Below are positions 1-25,567 of a stretch of DNA of 35,602 nucleotides, in pieces; within the stretch, counting starts at the first letter, position 1, and each line of letters opens with the position of its first letter. Where the stretch lies: positions 1 through 35,602 of the forward strand of contig JAALKG010000010.1 in NCBI GenBank assembly GCA_011088145.1, in the 5' to 3' direction. A program made the translations under genes and the position numbers. Origin of the DNA: Cyanobacteria bacterium MH1_Bin12 (GTDB lineage Bacteria > Cyanobacteriota > Cyanobacteriia > Cyanobacteriales > Cyanobacteriaceae). Under the pieces are notes generated by a model. It was not told the origin of the DNA. It did no database searches and was given only the letters and a program-made list of their open reading frames with translations.

Positions 1-67
1 GATTAGGACATTGATGATTTCTAAAAGTATTGCTATGTCAAGATTTTAACCTTTGTCCTTTGCTATA
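1..67 (-). repeat. Interspersed repeat R1, copy A (cut by window edge)
   Basis: This copy begins at the window edge with GATTAGGACATTGATGATTT and ends with CTTTGCTATA. It is closely similar to the segments at 2362-2464, 19645-19879 (reverse orientation, interrupted) and 25294-25360 (reverse orientation). The complete copy at 2362-2464 shows inverted ends of the form TATATAGCA...TGCTATATA, so the family looks like a small non-autonomous transposable element. This copy lies 26 bp past the stop codon of the symporter gene. It holds no open reading frame of interest. Confidence 0.8.
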
Positions 68-2361: not shown

Positions 2362-2464
2362 TATATAGCAGAGAACGGCTTGATTAGGACATTGATAATT
2401 TCTCAAAGTATTACTATATCGAGATTTTAACCTTTATCCTTTGCCCCTTGTACTTTGCTATATA
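2362..2464 (-). repeat. Interspersed repeat R1, copy B (complete)
   Basis: This is the most complete uninterrupted copy of R1, about 103 bp. Its ends are inverted repeats: TATATAGCAGAG on the left and CTTTGCTATATA on the right (reverse complement TATATAGCAAAG). The terminal TA steps would fit the TA target duplications of IS630/Tc1-type elements, but the surrounding AT-rich DNA makes that hard to prove. It sits between the TonB-like gene (stop at 2478) and the PilZ-like gene. No coding capacity is visible, so it would need a transposase supplied from elsewhere. Confidence 0.8.
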
Positions 2465-8375: not shown

Positions 8376-8520
8376 AACTAGAGTCTGCTGAATAAAAATG
8401 AAACCCTTACGAATAATGCTTGACCGCTAAAATTCACTTCAAAAAATACCAAAAATCACCCCAAATTCCCATTCTCAATTATCCGCAATTTTTGACTTTT
8501 TAGCCCAAGCCCTAACTAGA
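8376..8520. repeat. Interspersed repeat E, copy 1, flanked by 8-bp direct repeats
   Basis: The block from about 8384 to 8512 is repeated in reverse orientation at 13606-13784, with strong identity over segments such as ATTGCGGATAATTGAGAATG and AAGCATTATTCGTAA. Copy 1 is bounded by a direct repeat TAACTAGA (8376-8383 and 8513-8520), as expected of a target-site duplication. The two ends are only weakly inverted (GTCTGCTGAATAAAAA against GGGCTTGGGCTAAAAA), sharing mainly the inner TAAAAA. No coding capacity is visible. It is best read as a MITE or a deleted insertion sequence inserted at TAACTAGA. Confidence 0.7.
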
Positions 8521-13605: not shown

Positions 13606-13784
13606 TAGGGCTTGGGCGAAAAAGTCAAAAATTGCGGATAATTGAAAATTGCGGTCAGAACCCGCGGAATTTTTAATCTGCAAGGGAAGGCTGACCAAGA
13701 GGAGAATTGAGAATGGGAATTTGGGGTTATTTTTGGTATTTTTTAGCTGTTAAGCATTATTCGTAAAGGTTTCATATTTATTCA
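13606..13784. repeat. Interspersed repeat E, copy 2, with a 65-bp internal insertion
   Basis: This is the second copy of repeat E, in the opposite orientation to 8384-8512. It reads TAGGGCTTGGGCGAAAAAGT onward and ends near TTTATTCA at 13784. Relative to copy 1 it carries 65 extra bases (13646-13710), bounded by AATTGA on both sides, with an inner GGTCAG...CTGACC inverted pair. Its far end (13778-13784) reaches into the stop codon and the adjacent Glu codon of the MscS gene. Between this and the GNAT gene lie only the palindrome and AT-rich DNA. Confidence 0.7.
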
Positions 13785-15691
13785 TCAACATAAAAACGGT
13801 AGAACAAATATTTATCCATAAAGGGGTGCTCATCTGTGACGTGGTGAATGATTTTTTTCTCAATTAAAATTTGTCCTAATTCAGTGGCTTCCTCTCTCTC
13901 ATAATCATAATTTTTAATGAACCAATCTACTAATTCTTGACCAATAAAACAGCTTTCATAGACATTTAAACGATAACGACGATCGAGTATTTTGATCCCA
14001 TTTTCGCCACGAATTTTAATAATTAAATTTTCAATCCCTTCATCAGTTAATTTATCCTCCAAATCAGTTAAGAAAATATTTGTATCTTCTTCTATCACTT
14101 CCATATCTTCTAAGTCATATTTTGTCTGCATATCGGGTGAAATTCCTTGTTTTTCAAGCCAAATTTCGATCGCTTTATCTAATTTAGGCGATCGTAAATT
14201 AAGATCTCTTTGAGGGAAAGGAATCTCAATTTCATGGCGATATAAACTCGCAGCAATACGATAATTAAGTTCACTTATTAACTGTAATTGCTTGGATGGT
14301 TCATCAATCCAAACACAAACTTGAAAATTCAAGGAACTGTCTGCAAACTCTTTAAACCAAATTTGAGGACGAGGGGTTAATAACACATCAGGATGACTTT
14401 TGACGGCCTCTAATAAAGCCCGTCTTACTTTTTTCATATTCGAGCCATAAGCAACACCAATGGGAATTCTTAAGCGAGAAACAGAATCTCCATAATTCCA
14501 ATTTATAACATCATTTTCCACAAAACGAGAATTAGGAATAATAATCGATACTTTATCCATTGTCTTAATGACAGTACTACGAGAACCAATTTTTTGAACT
14601 TTTCCTTGCCAATCCCCCACCTTAATAAAATCCCCTATTTGTATGGGACGTTCTATAACAATAATTAAACCACTAATAAAATTATTGGCAATATTTTGTA
14701 AACCAAAACCAATTCCAACCCCTAAAACACTAACTAAAATAGCTAAAGAACTAACATCAAATCCCCAAATTTGCCAGAGAATAATTATTGCTAAAAAACT
14801 GAGAATATATTGAAGAATAATAGTTATAACATCTTGTAAAGCTCTATTTGCTCCTGTTTTACTTAAAATAGTTTGTTTTAATAAAACCGTAAAAATGCGA
14901 ATTATAAACCATAAAGCAATGGTAAAAATTAACAGTAATAATAAATCGATTGCAGAGTATTCACTTTCACCTAAACTCAAAATATTACTATCAAGAGTTT
15001 GGTAAATTTGATAACGGATAGTGCGAACTAAGGGAAAAACTTCACTGGTATAAAATAAAACCCAAATCCAAACTCCTACTTGTAGAGCAAAAAGTGTTAA
15101 ATTCCAAACAATTTTAAAAGGGGTTTCTAAATTATAAACAGGAGAAGATGGATTTTTGAGTAACCATGCTAATTTAATAATGCAAAACTTACCGAAAAAA
15201 TAGAGAAAAATATTAAAAATAACAGCAAAAATAACTGCTAAAAAAGTTTTTAATAAATGATTTAATATATAGTTATAAGAACGTTGCTTTCTACCTTGAA
15301 TTACATTGTTTTGTAAAATATTTCGCCAAACTTGTGCTTGTTCTTCGATCGTCGTTCCTGAGATTACATCTGATTTAGTTACATTCAAAATATGCTTATT
15401 ATCAGCAAGATTACGAATAACAGTTTGCTCATTTTCCACAAACACTTGTAAACTTAATTTTTGTGAACTATTTACTTGTTCGAGTAAGTTAGAATTAATT
15501 AGTTCTGCCCTTTCTTGAGCTGTAAAATTTTCAATACTACCTACTTTAAATAAATATTTTCCATCCAAAACAATTATAGCTTTTTGTTTGACTTGAATCG
15601 GAGTATCTTGAGCAAAACTATCACCATTAAGTGATAAAAAACAGATTAATAACACTGTTAACAAAAATTTTAAAGTTTGTTGGATTTTCAT
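13778..15691 (-). CDS. MscS-type mechanosensitive channel fused to a C-terminal DEP domain
   Basis: This 637-residue inner-membrane protein has a signal peptide (residues 1-28, ending DSFAQ), a periplasmic region of about 115 residues and several membrane segments (about residues 145-330). An MscS core follows: pore helix VLGVGIGFGLQNIANNFISG, beta domain PIQIGDFIKVGDWQGKVQKI, then IIPNSRFVENDVINW and the mixed alpha/beta vestibule. About 95 residues at the C-terminus (SCFIGQELVDWFIKNYDYER and ILIEKKIIHHVTDEHPFMD) look like a DEP domain, which in other proteins binds membranes or partner proteins. Opening under membrane tension would release solutes on osmotic downshock, and the DEP part could tune gating or location. 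The stop codon lies in repeat E copy 2, so the end may have been altered. Confidence 0.85.
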   Translation of the reverse strand: MKIQQTLKFLLTVLLICFLSLNGDSFAQDTPIQVKQKAIIVLDGKYLFKVGSIENFTAQERAELINSNLLEQVNSSQKLSLQVFVENEQTVIRNLADNKHILNVTKSDVISGTTIEEQAQVWRNILQNNVIQGRKQRSYNYILNHLLKTFLAVIFAVIFNIFLYFFGKFCIIKLAWLLKNPSSPVYNLETPFKIVWNLTLFALQVGVWIWVLFYTSEVFPLVRTIRYQIYQTLDSNILSLGESEYSAIDLLLLLIFTIALWFIIRIFTVLLKQTILSKTGANRALQDVITIILQYILSFLAIIILWQIWGFDVSSLAILVSVLGVGIGFGLQNIANNFISGLIIVIERPIQIGDFIKVGDWQGKVQKIGSRSTVIKTMDKVSIIIPNSRFVENDVINWNYGDSVSRLRIPIGVAYGSNMKKVRRALLEAVKSHPDVLLTPRPQIWFKEFADSSLNFQVCVWIDEPSKQLQLISELNYRIAASLYRHEIEIPFPQRDLNLRSPKLDKAIEIWLEKQGISPDMQTKYDLEDMEVIEEDTNIFLTDLEDKLTDEGIENLIIKIRGENGIKILDRRYRLNVYESCFIGQELVDWFIKNYDYEREEATELGQILIEKKIIHHVTDEHPFMDKYLFYRFYVDE

Positions 15692-17165: not shown

Positions 17166-17354
17166 GGTGCGACCTGTTAGGGGTGCGACCTGATTTTGAT
17201 GTTGGAAGAAAGGTCATAAAATTTTTGCTCTATAAGGTATTTATTAATCCATAAAATTAAGAAAATACTGTAGCTAATTATATGTTCTAAAATTTTCTAA
17301 AAACCTCTTTAATGGTGAATCACAGCCATAATGTATCAGAGGAGAGTCGCACCC
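17165..17354. mobile_element. IS remnant or MITE with GGGTGCGAC inverted repeats
   Basis: The left end reads GGGTGCGACCTGATTTTGAT (17181-17200). The right end, read on the other strand from 17354, is GGGTGCGACTCTCCTCTGAT. They match perfectly over 9 bp and at 14 of the first 20 positions. A second direct copy of GGGTGCGACCTG sits 16 bp outside the left end (17165-17176). The interior is about 140 bp of AT-rich DNA without coding capacity. The right end encodes the last residues (RVRLSSDTLWL) of the truncated Rieske-TPP frame, and the left end abuts the truncated antiporter. This is an internally deleted insertion sequence or MITE at a deletion junction. I cannot assign the IS family. Confidence 0.7.
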
Positions 17355-18668
17355 TTTTAAACTGTTCTACCACAATGCTAATTTCTCCCCACACAGGCAC
17401 AGTTACCCGATGAAATTTACCCAAAGCTAAAGGATCGAAATCTACTTGAATAATTGGTTTACCAGCATAAATGCCCGTATGATTAGAAAAAGAAGCACCA
17501 AAAACCAATAACACATCCGACTCATTCATAAACCAACTGGCAATAGGAGTGCCACTACGACCTAATACTCCACAACCTAAAGGATGACTATCTGAGATTA
17601 AACCCTTGCCTTTAAAAGTCGTTAAGACTGGTGCATTTAACATCTCAGCTAGTTGGGTAATAGCATCCATATTAAACCTCGAACCATGTCCCACGATAAT
17701 TACAGGACGTTTAGCTGATTTTAATAACTCAACCGCTTGGTCTAAAGATTGAGGTGGTGGAGCGATTTGTAAGGGAGTAATCCGACCCTCTGGAGATGAT
17801 GCCTTTGCACCTTCTTTCGCAGGTAAGGTTTGGATTTCATCGGGAAAAATGAGGTGGGAGACGTTGCGTTCTAACAAGGCGTGTTTAATCGCTAAAGTAA
17901 TCAATTCAGTATGATCGCTATTTTGTAAAACCGTATGACTCCAAGAAGCAACTCCACTAAAAGCGGCAGAAAGATCACATTCTTGGAAATTGCCTCTACC
18001 TAAGACTTGGGTGCTAACTTGTCCTGTCAAAGCTAAAATGGGAGCACGATCGACTTTGGCATCCCACATCCCTGTTAATAAATTAGTCGCACCCGGCCCT
18101 GCGATCGTCAAACAAGCCGCAGGTTTTCCCGTTAATTTACCGTAAGCCGAAGCCGCAAATGCCCCCCTGCACCTTCGTGGCGAATTCCGATAAATTTGAG
18201 GTTACCTTGTTCTTCTTGACGACGTAAAGCATCGGCTAATCCTAAGTTAGAATGACCAACCATACCAAAGACATGAGTAACTCCCCAATTAACCATAGTT
18301 TCTGCCATGATATCAGTGACAGTTTTCACATGGGCTTGTTCTTCGGGTAAACCGACATAAATACCGTCTTCTCTAATTTCGGTGGGGAATGTTTCTAGGG
18401 AATCATCAACATCCAAACTACCAGGAGATTGACCTGTCAAAGGACAGTAATCCCAGCCATGCCAAGGACAACGCAAATAACCATTTTCGATCGAGCCTTC
18501 TCCTAGTGGGCCTCCTTGATGAGGACAACGATTATCTAATGCACCATATTTTCCTTCATAATGGGTTAAAGCAAGACTTTTATGTCCAGCGACGACGGTT
18601 TTAACTCGACCTTCTGGTAGTTCATCTAAATCGAGGACATGAAACCATTTTGTTGTTGTTTGAGACAT
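17320..18668 (-). pseudogene. Rieske [2Fe-2S]-TPP enzyme fusion, frameshifted and 3'-truncated
   Basis: The frame opens with a Rieske ferredoxin domain (residues about 8-110). Its cluster ligands are C48/H50 (NRCPHQGGPLG) and C67/H70 (RCPWHGWDY). A TPP-enzyme N-terminal domain of the acetolactate synthase/pyruvate oxidase type follows (VTHVFGMVGHSNLGLADALR, then IRHEGA). At about 18160-18165 a run of six G (minus strand) shifts the frame. One more G would join it to AFAASAYGKLTGKPAACLTI and the rest of the PYR domain, and to the central domain (PVIIVGHGSRFN, DVLLVFGASFSNHTG). The frame ends inside the IS-like element, so the C-terminal TPP-binding domain is missing. Intact, it would probably have been a redox-linked 2-oxoacid enzyme. 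It is almost certainly inactive here. Confidence 0.85.
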
Positions 18669-18854: not shown

Positions 18855-19610
18855 TTACATTGACAGTATTAGAGTCGCAAACAGAATAGTACCAAACATA
18901 AACGACCCAAAACAGGTTTCCTTTTCGTCAGGAAGCTCTCGCTTGAGAACATTGAGAATAATGCTACCAGCTAAAAATGACCAGACAATAGCGATCGCAG
19001 CTTCATTCAGATGAACTACCTGACCCACAATGGTACCAAACATAATAGCTCCGACGAGTAGCCAGCGTCCTTGCTCATCGTAGAGAGATTGGTGATGTTC
19101 CCGTAGGCTTTCGTCAATGATGAAAAAATGAAGAGCAATAGCGATAAAAAATAAGAGACAAGGGATAAAGTCATGATGGCTAATCTCTTGCAACAAATAG
19201 CCTAGAATGACATTGAACAGAGAAAAGGCACCGATGTGAATCCAAAAAATAGCCGAGCTATCACTTTCTATTTTAGTTGTTGATTGCTTAGATAACTTAG
19301 CTCTCAAAGCAAATAAATCTAATCCATAGAATACTAGCAACCCCATAAGTGCCAAAATGTAAACATGGTTTTCTAAATACTGCACCAAGAGAATTTCTGA
19401 GTGCTGAAGTTCTTCTTGGGTATGGCTTAGTTCAGGAAATATTTCCAGAAAAACATAACTGAGGGACACTCCACCAGCAAAAGATGTCCATCGAAATTGC
19501 GGAATAATGGAAAAAATGGGCAATCGTGTAGCAAAGCCATGAACTAAAGCTAAAGCGATCGCTAATATTACACCTGAACTTATCATCATACTTCTATCTA
19601 AAAATTTCAA
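18855..19610 (-). CDS. ZIP-like integral membrane protein
   Basis: This 251-residue protein has about eight hydrophobic segments. SFAGGVSLSYVFLEIFPELS near residue 43 and WSFLAGSIILNVLKRELPDE near residue 210 resemble the paired ZIP-family helices that carry Gly and an acidic residue before Pro. A His/Glu-containing region (HIGAFSLFNVILGYLLQEIS) lies mid-protein. ZIP proteins carry divalent metals such as zinc or iron into the cytoplasm. The classical metal ligands (HS/HEhxHE) are not all present: a helix with IDESLREHHQSLYDE and a later VVHLNEAA supply some His and Glu. Metal transport is therefore a guess. Neighbours on both sides are repeats, and no metal regulator is nearby. The start at 19610 gives a plausible first membrane helix. 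Confidence 0.55.
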   Translation of the reverse strand: MKFLDRSMMISSGVILAIALALVHGFATRLPIFSIIPQFRWTSFAGGVSLSYVFLEIFPELSHTQEELQHSEILLVQYLENHVYILALMGLLVFYGLDLFALRAKLSKQSTTKIESDSSAIFWIHIGAFSLFNVILGYLLQEISHHDFIPCLLFFIAIALHFFIIDESLREHHQSLYDEQGRWLLVGAIMFGTIVGQVVHLNEAAIAIVWSFLAGSIILNVLKRELPDEKETCFGSFMFGTILFATLILSM

Positions 19611-19644
19611 CTCAATAATTTAACGACCAGTAACTTCTAATTTT

Positions 19645-19879
19645 TATATAGCAAAGGACAAGGGGCAAAGGCAGCAATTCTCATAATGAGAATTTCACTT
19701 AATTATTTGCGATCGCAGATTAATAAAAATGCTGAAAAAGTTGATCCCTTCGTGAACATTTTGATAGCAAAAATAAATTATTAGTCAAAATGAGAATTGC
19801 TGGGGCAAAGGTTAAAATCTTGACATATCAATACTTGCAAAAATTATGAATGTCCTAATCAACATGTTCTCTGCTATAT
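19645..19879 (+). repeat. Interspersed repeat R1, copy C, interrupted by a 131-bp element
   Basis: The outer parts (19645-19671 and 19803-19879) match R1 copy B in reverse orientation, from TATATAGCAAAGGACAAGGG through GTTAAAATCTTGACATATCA to GTCCTAATCAAC and CTCTGCTATAT. Both inverted ends of R1 are present, so this copy was complete before another element jumped into its GGGCAAAGG segment. The last 25 bp overlap the 3' end of the PCP_red gene and supply its final codons and stop. Confidence 0.8.
19672..19802. mobile_element. 131-bp MITE-like element with 13-bp TIRs and 9-bp target duplication
   Basis: The left end is CAGCAATTCTCAT (19672-19684) and the right end is its exact reverse complement ATGAGAATTGCTG (19790-19802). 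The flanks repeat GGGCAAAGG on both sides (19663-19671 and 19803-19811), as a 9-bp target-site duplication. Next to the left end is a near-palindrome (AATTCTCATAATGAGAATT). A HIP1 site lies inside at 19709-19716. No coding capacity exists in 131 bp, so a transposase must act in trans. The intact target form is seen in R1 copy B, where CAAGGGGCAAAGG is uninterrupted. Confidence 0.85.
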
Positions 19880-20076
19880 CTTGTGTTCTGGGCTGTTAAA
19901 ATCACTTTTACAACCTGCATCCCAAACTTCAGGTTGATTTCCATGAGCGGGAATTCCGCCGTAATCAATTTTTCATCCTTTTCTGTAGCAAATTTTTCAA
20001 TTTTTTTTCTCGCACCAGGACGTACGAAAAAAGGTATTTCTTTTAATTTTTCTTGAGCTTCTGTAGTCCATTCCAT
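19855..20076 (-). CDS. PCP_red domain protein
   Basis: This small 73-residue protein resembles the PCP_red domain, best known as the C-terminal part of subunit B of light-independent protochlorophyllide reductase. It also occurs alone in cyanobacteria. WTTEAQEKLKEIPFFVRPGA followed by RKKIEKFATEKDEKLITAEF covers the family signature (W..EA...L..IPFFVR...R..IE..A...). I start it at the ATG at 20076, because the longer frame from 20154 overlaps the upstream DUF3086 gene and adds a stretch unlike the family. The last seven codons and the stop lie in repeat R1 copy C, so the original C-terminus may have been replaced. It is probably the last gene of a DUF3119-DUF3086-PCP_red unit. Confidence 0.75.
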   Translation of the reverse strand: MEWTTEAQEKLKEIPFFVRPGARKKIEKFATEKDEKLITAEFPLMEINLKFGMQVVKVILTAQNTRYSREHVD

Positions 20077-20110
20077 AGTTAAGCAAATATATACGATAAA
20101 AGATTGAACC

Positions 20111-25293: not shown

Positions 25294-25360
25294 GATATAG
25301 TAAAGGACAAAAGTTAAAATCTCAACATAGCAATACTTTTAGAAATCATCAATGTCCTAA
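25294..25360 (+). repeat. Interspersed repeat R1, copy D (partial)
   Basis: The sequence from GATATAGTAAAGGACAAAAG to AGAAATCATCAATGTCCTAA matches the reverse complement of copy A almost base for base. The far end (CAGAGAAC...TATATA in copies B and C) is missing, so this copy is truncated on its right side. The rest of the 25292-25567 gap holds short AATTCTCA direct repeats and no gene. Confidence 0.75.
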
Positions 25361-25567
25361 ATGAATTGTCAACTATTAAATATTAATAAATAATCGGAAA
25401 TGATTGTTAATTCTCAATTCTCAATTGAAGCTTAAATAGTCGATTCATTATTGCAAGCTCCTTATTTCTTTACCTTCGTGACATTCTCATGGATAATAAT
25501 GGTCGAAAAAGTATTTTATCTAATTTTAAAAACTAGCTACATACTTTAACAATTAACTTAAATCAAG

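Follow-up and report, generated by a model that had tools for sequence, protein, structure and literature searches.

The window analysed here, i.e., the whole 35,602-bp stretch of DNA (32% G+C; contig 126 of a 2.57-Mb assembly with an estimated completeness of 67.5%), carries a small gene for a PCP_red-domain protein, and directly 3' of this gene lie two nested repeats: a copy of a high-copy repeat, termed R1, and, inside it and beyond the stop codon, a 131-bp element (Table 1). R1 supplies the last residues of the PCP_red protein (YSREHVD) and its stop codon, and the protein is about 22 aa longer than that of relatives, which has 51 aa and ends in KFN. Elsewhere in the window, positions 17320-18668 of the minus strand encode a Rieske domain and then a thiamine-pyrophosphate enzyme, the N-terminal domain of which is divided between two frames (18135-18668 and 17323-18111); this looks like a frameshift and may reflect either a gene that is broken or an error of assembly. 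There is also a pair of inverted repeat arms about 5 kb apart (8386-8514 and 13606-13787; 44-68 nt, 79-95% complementary), unrelated to the 131-bp element.

Table 1. Coordinates, in the window, of the nested repeats and of the gene beside them.
Feature	Position	Strand	Remarks
MITE, non-autonomous, exactly 131 bp	19672..19802	.	perfect 13-bp TIRs and 9-bp duplication
Left TIR, CAGCAATTCTCAT	19672..19684	+	first 13 bases are the reverse complement of the last 13
Right TIR, CAGCAATTCTCAT	19790..19802	-	19-bp form CAGCAATTCTCATTTTGAC at 19784-19802
Target-site duplication GGGCAAAGG, left copy	19663..19671	+	
Target-site duplication GGGCAAAGG, right copy	19803..19811	+	
R1, part left of the element	19645..19671	-	aligned to 2362-2464 and 30 other genomic copies
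R1, part right of the element	19812..19879	-	aligned to R1 copies
Uninserted R1 copy (reference of the preliminary description)	2362..2464	+	99-bp class between TATAGC and GCTATA
PCP_red-domain gene (MEWTTEAQ...YSREHVD)	19855..20076	-	PF08369, E=1.5e-16; translation

The element runs from CAGCAATTCTCAT to ATGAGAATTGCTG, and its outline is as the preliminary description of this DNA had given it: exactly 131 bp, reverse-complementary terminal inverted repeats (TIRs) that are perfect over 13 bp, and GGGCAAAGG on both sides. The 13-mer CAGCAATTCTCAT occurs exactly twice in the window, solely as the inverted pair that bounds the element, and four times in the 2.57-Mb assembly; no ORF of at least 80 aa was found inside the 131 bp. 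Being short and without a transposase gene, bounded by TIRs, flanked by a target-site duplication and equipped with ends common to autonomous ISs (below), the element is a MITE, and its nested insertion is real and well supported. Such an insertion is ordinary in kind and is mildly interesting for the breadth of its ends, its fixed 131-bp length and a sign of horizontal spread. MITE copies number only two in the 67.5% complete assembly, as compared to many per genome elsewhere (e.g., the 123-bp type of a verrucomicrobial MAG). Positions 19400-20100 gave no Rfam match up to E=1, and a conserved RNA structure was considered and rejected, as RNAalifold gives mainly the TIR stem; the internal hairpins of one MITE member are partly kept elsewhere (5 of 10 and 6 of 19 pairs in the window copy).

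R1, for which the genome holds at least 40 scored matches, mostly falls into length classes of 85, 92, 99 and 106 bp, measured from TATAGC to GCTATA. It is also found at window positions 1-67 and 25296-25387, ends in TATAGC..GCTATA, and contains a 7-bp unit (AAAGGAC) in variable number; its TA ends would fit a MITE of the IS630/Tc1 type. Taking out the 131-bp element and one GGGCAAAGG yields an R1 copy of 95 bp whose alignment to the reverse complement of 2362-2464 spans both from end to end but for the 7 bp that the latter carries beside the insertion point; that is, the match to 2362-2464 claimed earlier stands for the identity of the repeat but not for its exact length class. Since an uninserted R1 copy on contig 129 (L177; 92 bp) shares the junction of the rebuilt site, TTTTAACCTTTGCCCCTTG, and R1 varies by 7-bp units, we regard the 7-bp difference as natural R1 variation. 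The same empty copy has a single GGGCAAAGG, which supports the order of events proposed in the preliminary description, with R1 first and the 131-bp element second, and makes the locus a clean nested-insertion marker. This paralogous copy stood in for a strictly orthologous empty site, which was not found via the neighbouring DUF3086 and PCP_red genes of relatives because gene order differs there and PCP_red was not seen beside DUF3086; at the remaining relatives' neighbour-gene loci, R1 and the MITE were looked for and not found.

The ends are not confined to this locus. A second member in the same genome is 57 bp long (C27:4279-4335), with ends CAGCAATTCTCATTATGG and CAGCAATTCTCGTTTTGACC and a perfect 9-bp duplication, ATACAAACC, and among the 14 other genomes of the bacterial family two, G005 and G011, carry 131-bp members, each with a 9-bp duplication of its own (GATCGTTTC and GGGTTCTAT, respectively). 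Neither of the findings by which the preliminary description would have been refuted, relatives with the same 131 bp but no duplication, or ends confined to this place, was thus made. The exact ends that it gave for a new non-autonomous family hold, but this genome does not have the family to itself, given the 131-bp members in other cyanobacteria. The G005 and G011 copies are identical at 130 of 131 positions and lie at unrelated sites in two genera, although the DUF3086 proteins of their hosts share 67% identity, which suggests, from this one protein, a recent horizontal spread of the MITE. Matches to this 131-bp element were detected in 21 of the 293 genomes of the order (Cyanobacteriales), a search set that takes in Phormidium yuhuli (G107, with hit coordinates equal to those of NZ_CP098612.1); 131-bp copies sit on plasmids of P. 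yuhuli, Oscillatoria acuminata PCC 6304 and Anabaena cylindrica PCC 7122, and members in other cyanobacteria measure 131 bp, sometimes 132 or 141. The window element aligns to the other 131-mers without gaps and shares 33-37 of 79 internal bases with them, vs. an average of 20-22 for shuffles, and is thus a distant but homologous member of the 131-bp family. An inner block (GAAAGCC.CATTCYTTCGTTCAAG) is conserved across the 131-bp copies of several cyanobacterial families and has a weaker form in the window copy. That selection has kept the exact 131-bp architecture with this block strikes us as improbable; if it were so, the interior would be more than filler (e.g., a length or an extra protein contact needed for transposition), and the MITE lineage would persist and pass from genus to genus as a unit in itself, tied to no one parent IS.

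That the 9-bp duplication is more than chance is seen in 105 non-redundant inverted pairs of these ends, gathered without requiring a duplication. Exact duplications of 9 bp flanked 57 of these pairs, compared to one of 8 bp and four of 10 bp, and the shifted-flank control gave 0. The 57 duplications show a weak G/C excess at their outer positions, and a preferred target sequence was dropped, this weak excess being all that they display.

An exact scan for the 19-bp end CAGCAATTCTCATTTTGAC across 257 Gb of genomes matched at least 119 stretches of public genomes, where about two matches would be expected by chance (our own estimate, assuming even base composition). The record titles among the listed matches name Cyanobacteria, Verrucomicrobia, several classes of Pseudomonadota, Desulfobacterota, Nitrospira, Acidobacteriota, Aminicenantes, Omnitrophota, Chloroflexi, Marinifilum (Bacteroidota), Roizmanbacteria and others, i.e., more than 10 phyla among the listed records, a list that misbinning of MAGs may inflate. 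At dozens of the listed places, the end bounds a short element that has a second, inverted end and is flanked by a 9-bp duplication; these elements share the end and differ in their interiors. A set of MITEs in many phyla is thereby linked to the transposase group described below, and these elements can now be recognised by the 19-bp end. The JACQWK Verrucomicrobia MAG contains many copies of a 123-bp MITE that shares these ends and has 9-bp duplications (L054-L056, L060, L068, L082, L090, L093 and others). In other MAGs, several contigs stop about 55-125 bp inward of such ends, which suggests collapsed high-copy MITEs. A literature search with the 13-bp end CAGCAATTCTCAT returned no paper, nor any description of it as a transposon end, and the listed matches to an 11-bp part of the end were all in unrelated papers.

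The exact 19-bp end also adjoins genes for related transposases in Ca. Desantisbacteria (L059) and an alphaproteobacterium (L104). Autonomous ISs of Cyanobacteriales measure 1.4-1.9 kb and combine CAGCAATTCTCATTTTG-type ends on both sides, exact 9-bp duplications and one gene for a transposase of about 440 aa; the transposase is present in 54 of the 293 genomes of the order, and an exact 9/9 duplication was seen at many of the IS loci examined there. Full IS copies have one of two end types, CAGCAATTCTCATTTTG-type (1420 bp, or 1.80-1.88 kb) vs. CAGCAATTC(C/T)AAATT, with end type and transposase clade in agreement on the tree. The ends of the MITEs match the 1420-bp group best: their left ends align to the ends of these ISs over 23-24 bp at 92-100% identity, and that of the window copy over 28 bp at 89%. 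Further inside than about 25 bp from either end, the MITE bears no resemblance to any of the sampled ISs, and for this reason we do not present the MITE as a simple deletion derivative. The transposase was found in 10 of 21 MITE-bearing genomes vs. 44 of 272 others (Fisher p=0.0014, uncorrected for relatedness). Some IS copies, of 1526 and 1837-1876 bp (L195, L200, L203-L207), carry the same ~440-aa transposase and about 100-450 bp of extra DNA. The extra-long copies are near-identical and several per chromosome (at least seven each in G280 and G100), which suggests recent activity.

With the L059 protein as a query, two transposase copies were found in the window's own genome. One belongs to a 1401-bp IS (C86; ends CAGCAATTCCAAATTC, duplication GATTTCCAC) and is frameshifted, and the other (C163) is truncated, with only the left end of its IS remaining; both fall in the AAATT-end clade, with inner ends CAAATTC rather than TCATTTTGAC. 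The expectation that a transposase would lie elsewhere in the genome is not borne out by the two homologous copies, as both are broken and differ in their inner ends, and no intact cognate transposase was found in the 67.5% complete assembly. Given the tree clade and the fit of the ends to the 1420-bp group, the enzyme that moved the MITE was probably neither the C86 nor the C163 copy.

As for the nature of this enzyme, an alignment of 18 transposases shows D129 and D218/D219 to be invariant and E343 nearly so (numbering of the first sequence). The AlphaFold2 model (pLDDT 85.7, pTM 0.87) has a strand-helix core in which a run of strands (263-320) precedes the E343-bearing helix, as in the beta insertion of Tn5, and the PDB entries that it matches best are complexes of the Tn5 transposase (E=1.4e-9 to 2.9e-8, TM 0.51-0.59). 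The duplication length had been expected to limit the candidate IS families, and it does narrow the choice, but it is insufficient alone; it is the transposase that places the element near Tn5. The curated IS4, ISAs1, IS701 and IS1634 models matched weakly and, where cut-offs are stated, far below them: the IS4 model NF033591 matched 11 of the 18 members (best E=1.4e-5; 21 bits for the first member vs. a cut-off of 152) and the ISAs1 model matched one of 18 (E about 0.008, far below its cut-off). NCBI labels one relative 'ISNCY family transposase' (IS not classified yet). The parent family of the MITE is now identified, no curated model passes its cut-off for that family, and an unclassified, largely unmodelled transposase group is now tied to exact ends, a fixed 9-bp duplication and a predicted Tn5-like fold.

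We favor the hypothesis, with a probability of about 0.92, that a Tn5-like DDE transposase supplied in trans cut and pasted the MITE into a pre-existing R1 repeat. The transposase would recognise the ~19-bp ends CAGCAATTCTCATTWTGRM and free the element, which would be joined to target strands cut 9 bp apart, with gap repair producing the 9-bp duplication. The ends, the duplication, the nested order, the same-family members with other duplications and the autonomous ISs with the same ends and the same duplication length are direct observations, and we count the predicted Tn5-like fold with them; from the fold and the duplication length we infer the cut-and-paste chemistry of the group, and mobilisation would probably be in trans. 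The enzyme would be the ~440-aa transposase of the 1.4-1.9-kb IS group of Cyanobacteriales and, judging by the ends, of many phyla. More specifically, the one that moved the window copy would have belonged to the TCATTTTG-end clade and would by now either be lost or be absent from the assembly.

Alternatively, the element might be a member of Nezha, a cyanobacterial MITE (Zhou et al. 2008) that has been proposed to be moved by ISNpu3-like elements (PMC3049150); no paper found in our literature search describes a CAGCAATTCTCATTTTGAC-type end as a transposon end, and we consider membership to be on the unlikely side, although it would be compatible with mobilisation in trans by a Tn5-like transposase. 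Less probable still is that the element was mobilised by the CAAATTC-end IS of this genome (C86, C163), whose ends might be near enough given the shared CAGCAATTC: its transposase is of the same family and the sole one of the group found in the assembly, and the first nine end bases are identical, but the inner ends differ (CAAATTC vs. TCATTTTGAC), the tree shows the end sequence to vary with the transposase clade, both copies are broken, and the ends of the MITE agree better with those of the other clade. Finally, that we are dealing with an old palindromic repeat that does not move, and that GGGCAAAGG is a part of R1's own short tandem repeats, is hardly credible, even though the insertion point coincides with a variable array of 7-bp, AAAGGAC-type units in R1, because the duplication is exactly 9 bp long and includes GGGC, which is absent from the 7-bp unit, exact 9-bp duplications of unrelated sequence flank other members, and the uninserted R1 copy L177 has a single GGGCAAAGG in this layout.

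IS10 makes 9-bp and IS50 8-9-bp duplications, both by cut and paste, and the IS4 family as defined by De Palmenaer et al. (2008) has duplications of ~10 bp and requires a Y-(2)-R-(3)-E-(6)-K signature (PMC2266710). The 9-bp duplications and the predicted Tn5-like transposase fold agree with this family; in the rows of our transposase alignment (A1) that reach the signature region, R and E are present, but the Y position is G (A in one row) and K lies one residue later. The transposase thus probably works like that of Tn5 but is not filed as IS4. Tn5/IS50 and Tn10/IS10 (9-bp subgroups of the IS4 family) are alike in predicted fold with the beta insertion, duplication and IS length, whereas structure-aligned identity to Tn5 is 12-13%, the YREK tyrosine is absent here, and the end consensus differs: against CW------Y---CA-A--W- of IS50/Tn5, CAGCAATTCTCATTTTGAC fits C1, W2 and Y9 but has TT-T for CA-A at positions 13-16. 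The IS4Sa subgroup shares 5'-CA ends, 8-10-bp duplications and a length of 1150-1750 bp (PMC2266710), but its end consensus, as published, carries T at position 9, where C is found here, and the full YREK signature is absent from the transposase described here. Nezha, likened by description only, is likewise small, non-autonomous and cyanobacterial, and has been attributed to an IS. The ISNCY-annotated ISs of Cyanobacteriales (e.g., WP_013335080.1, from a plasmid of Gloeothece verrucosa PCC 7822) have a homologous transposase, with 44% identity to a broken copy of this genome, as well as CAGCAATTC ends and exact 9-bp duplications like those described here, and differ in being autonomous, with 1.4-1.9 kb and a transposase gene vs. 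131 bp and no gene.
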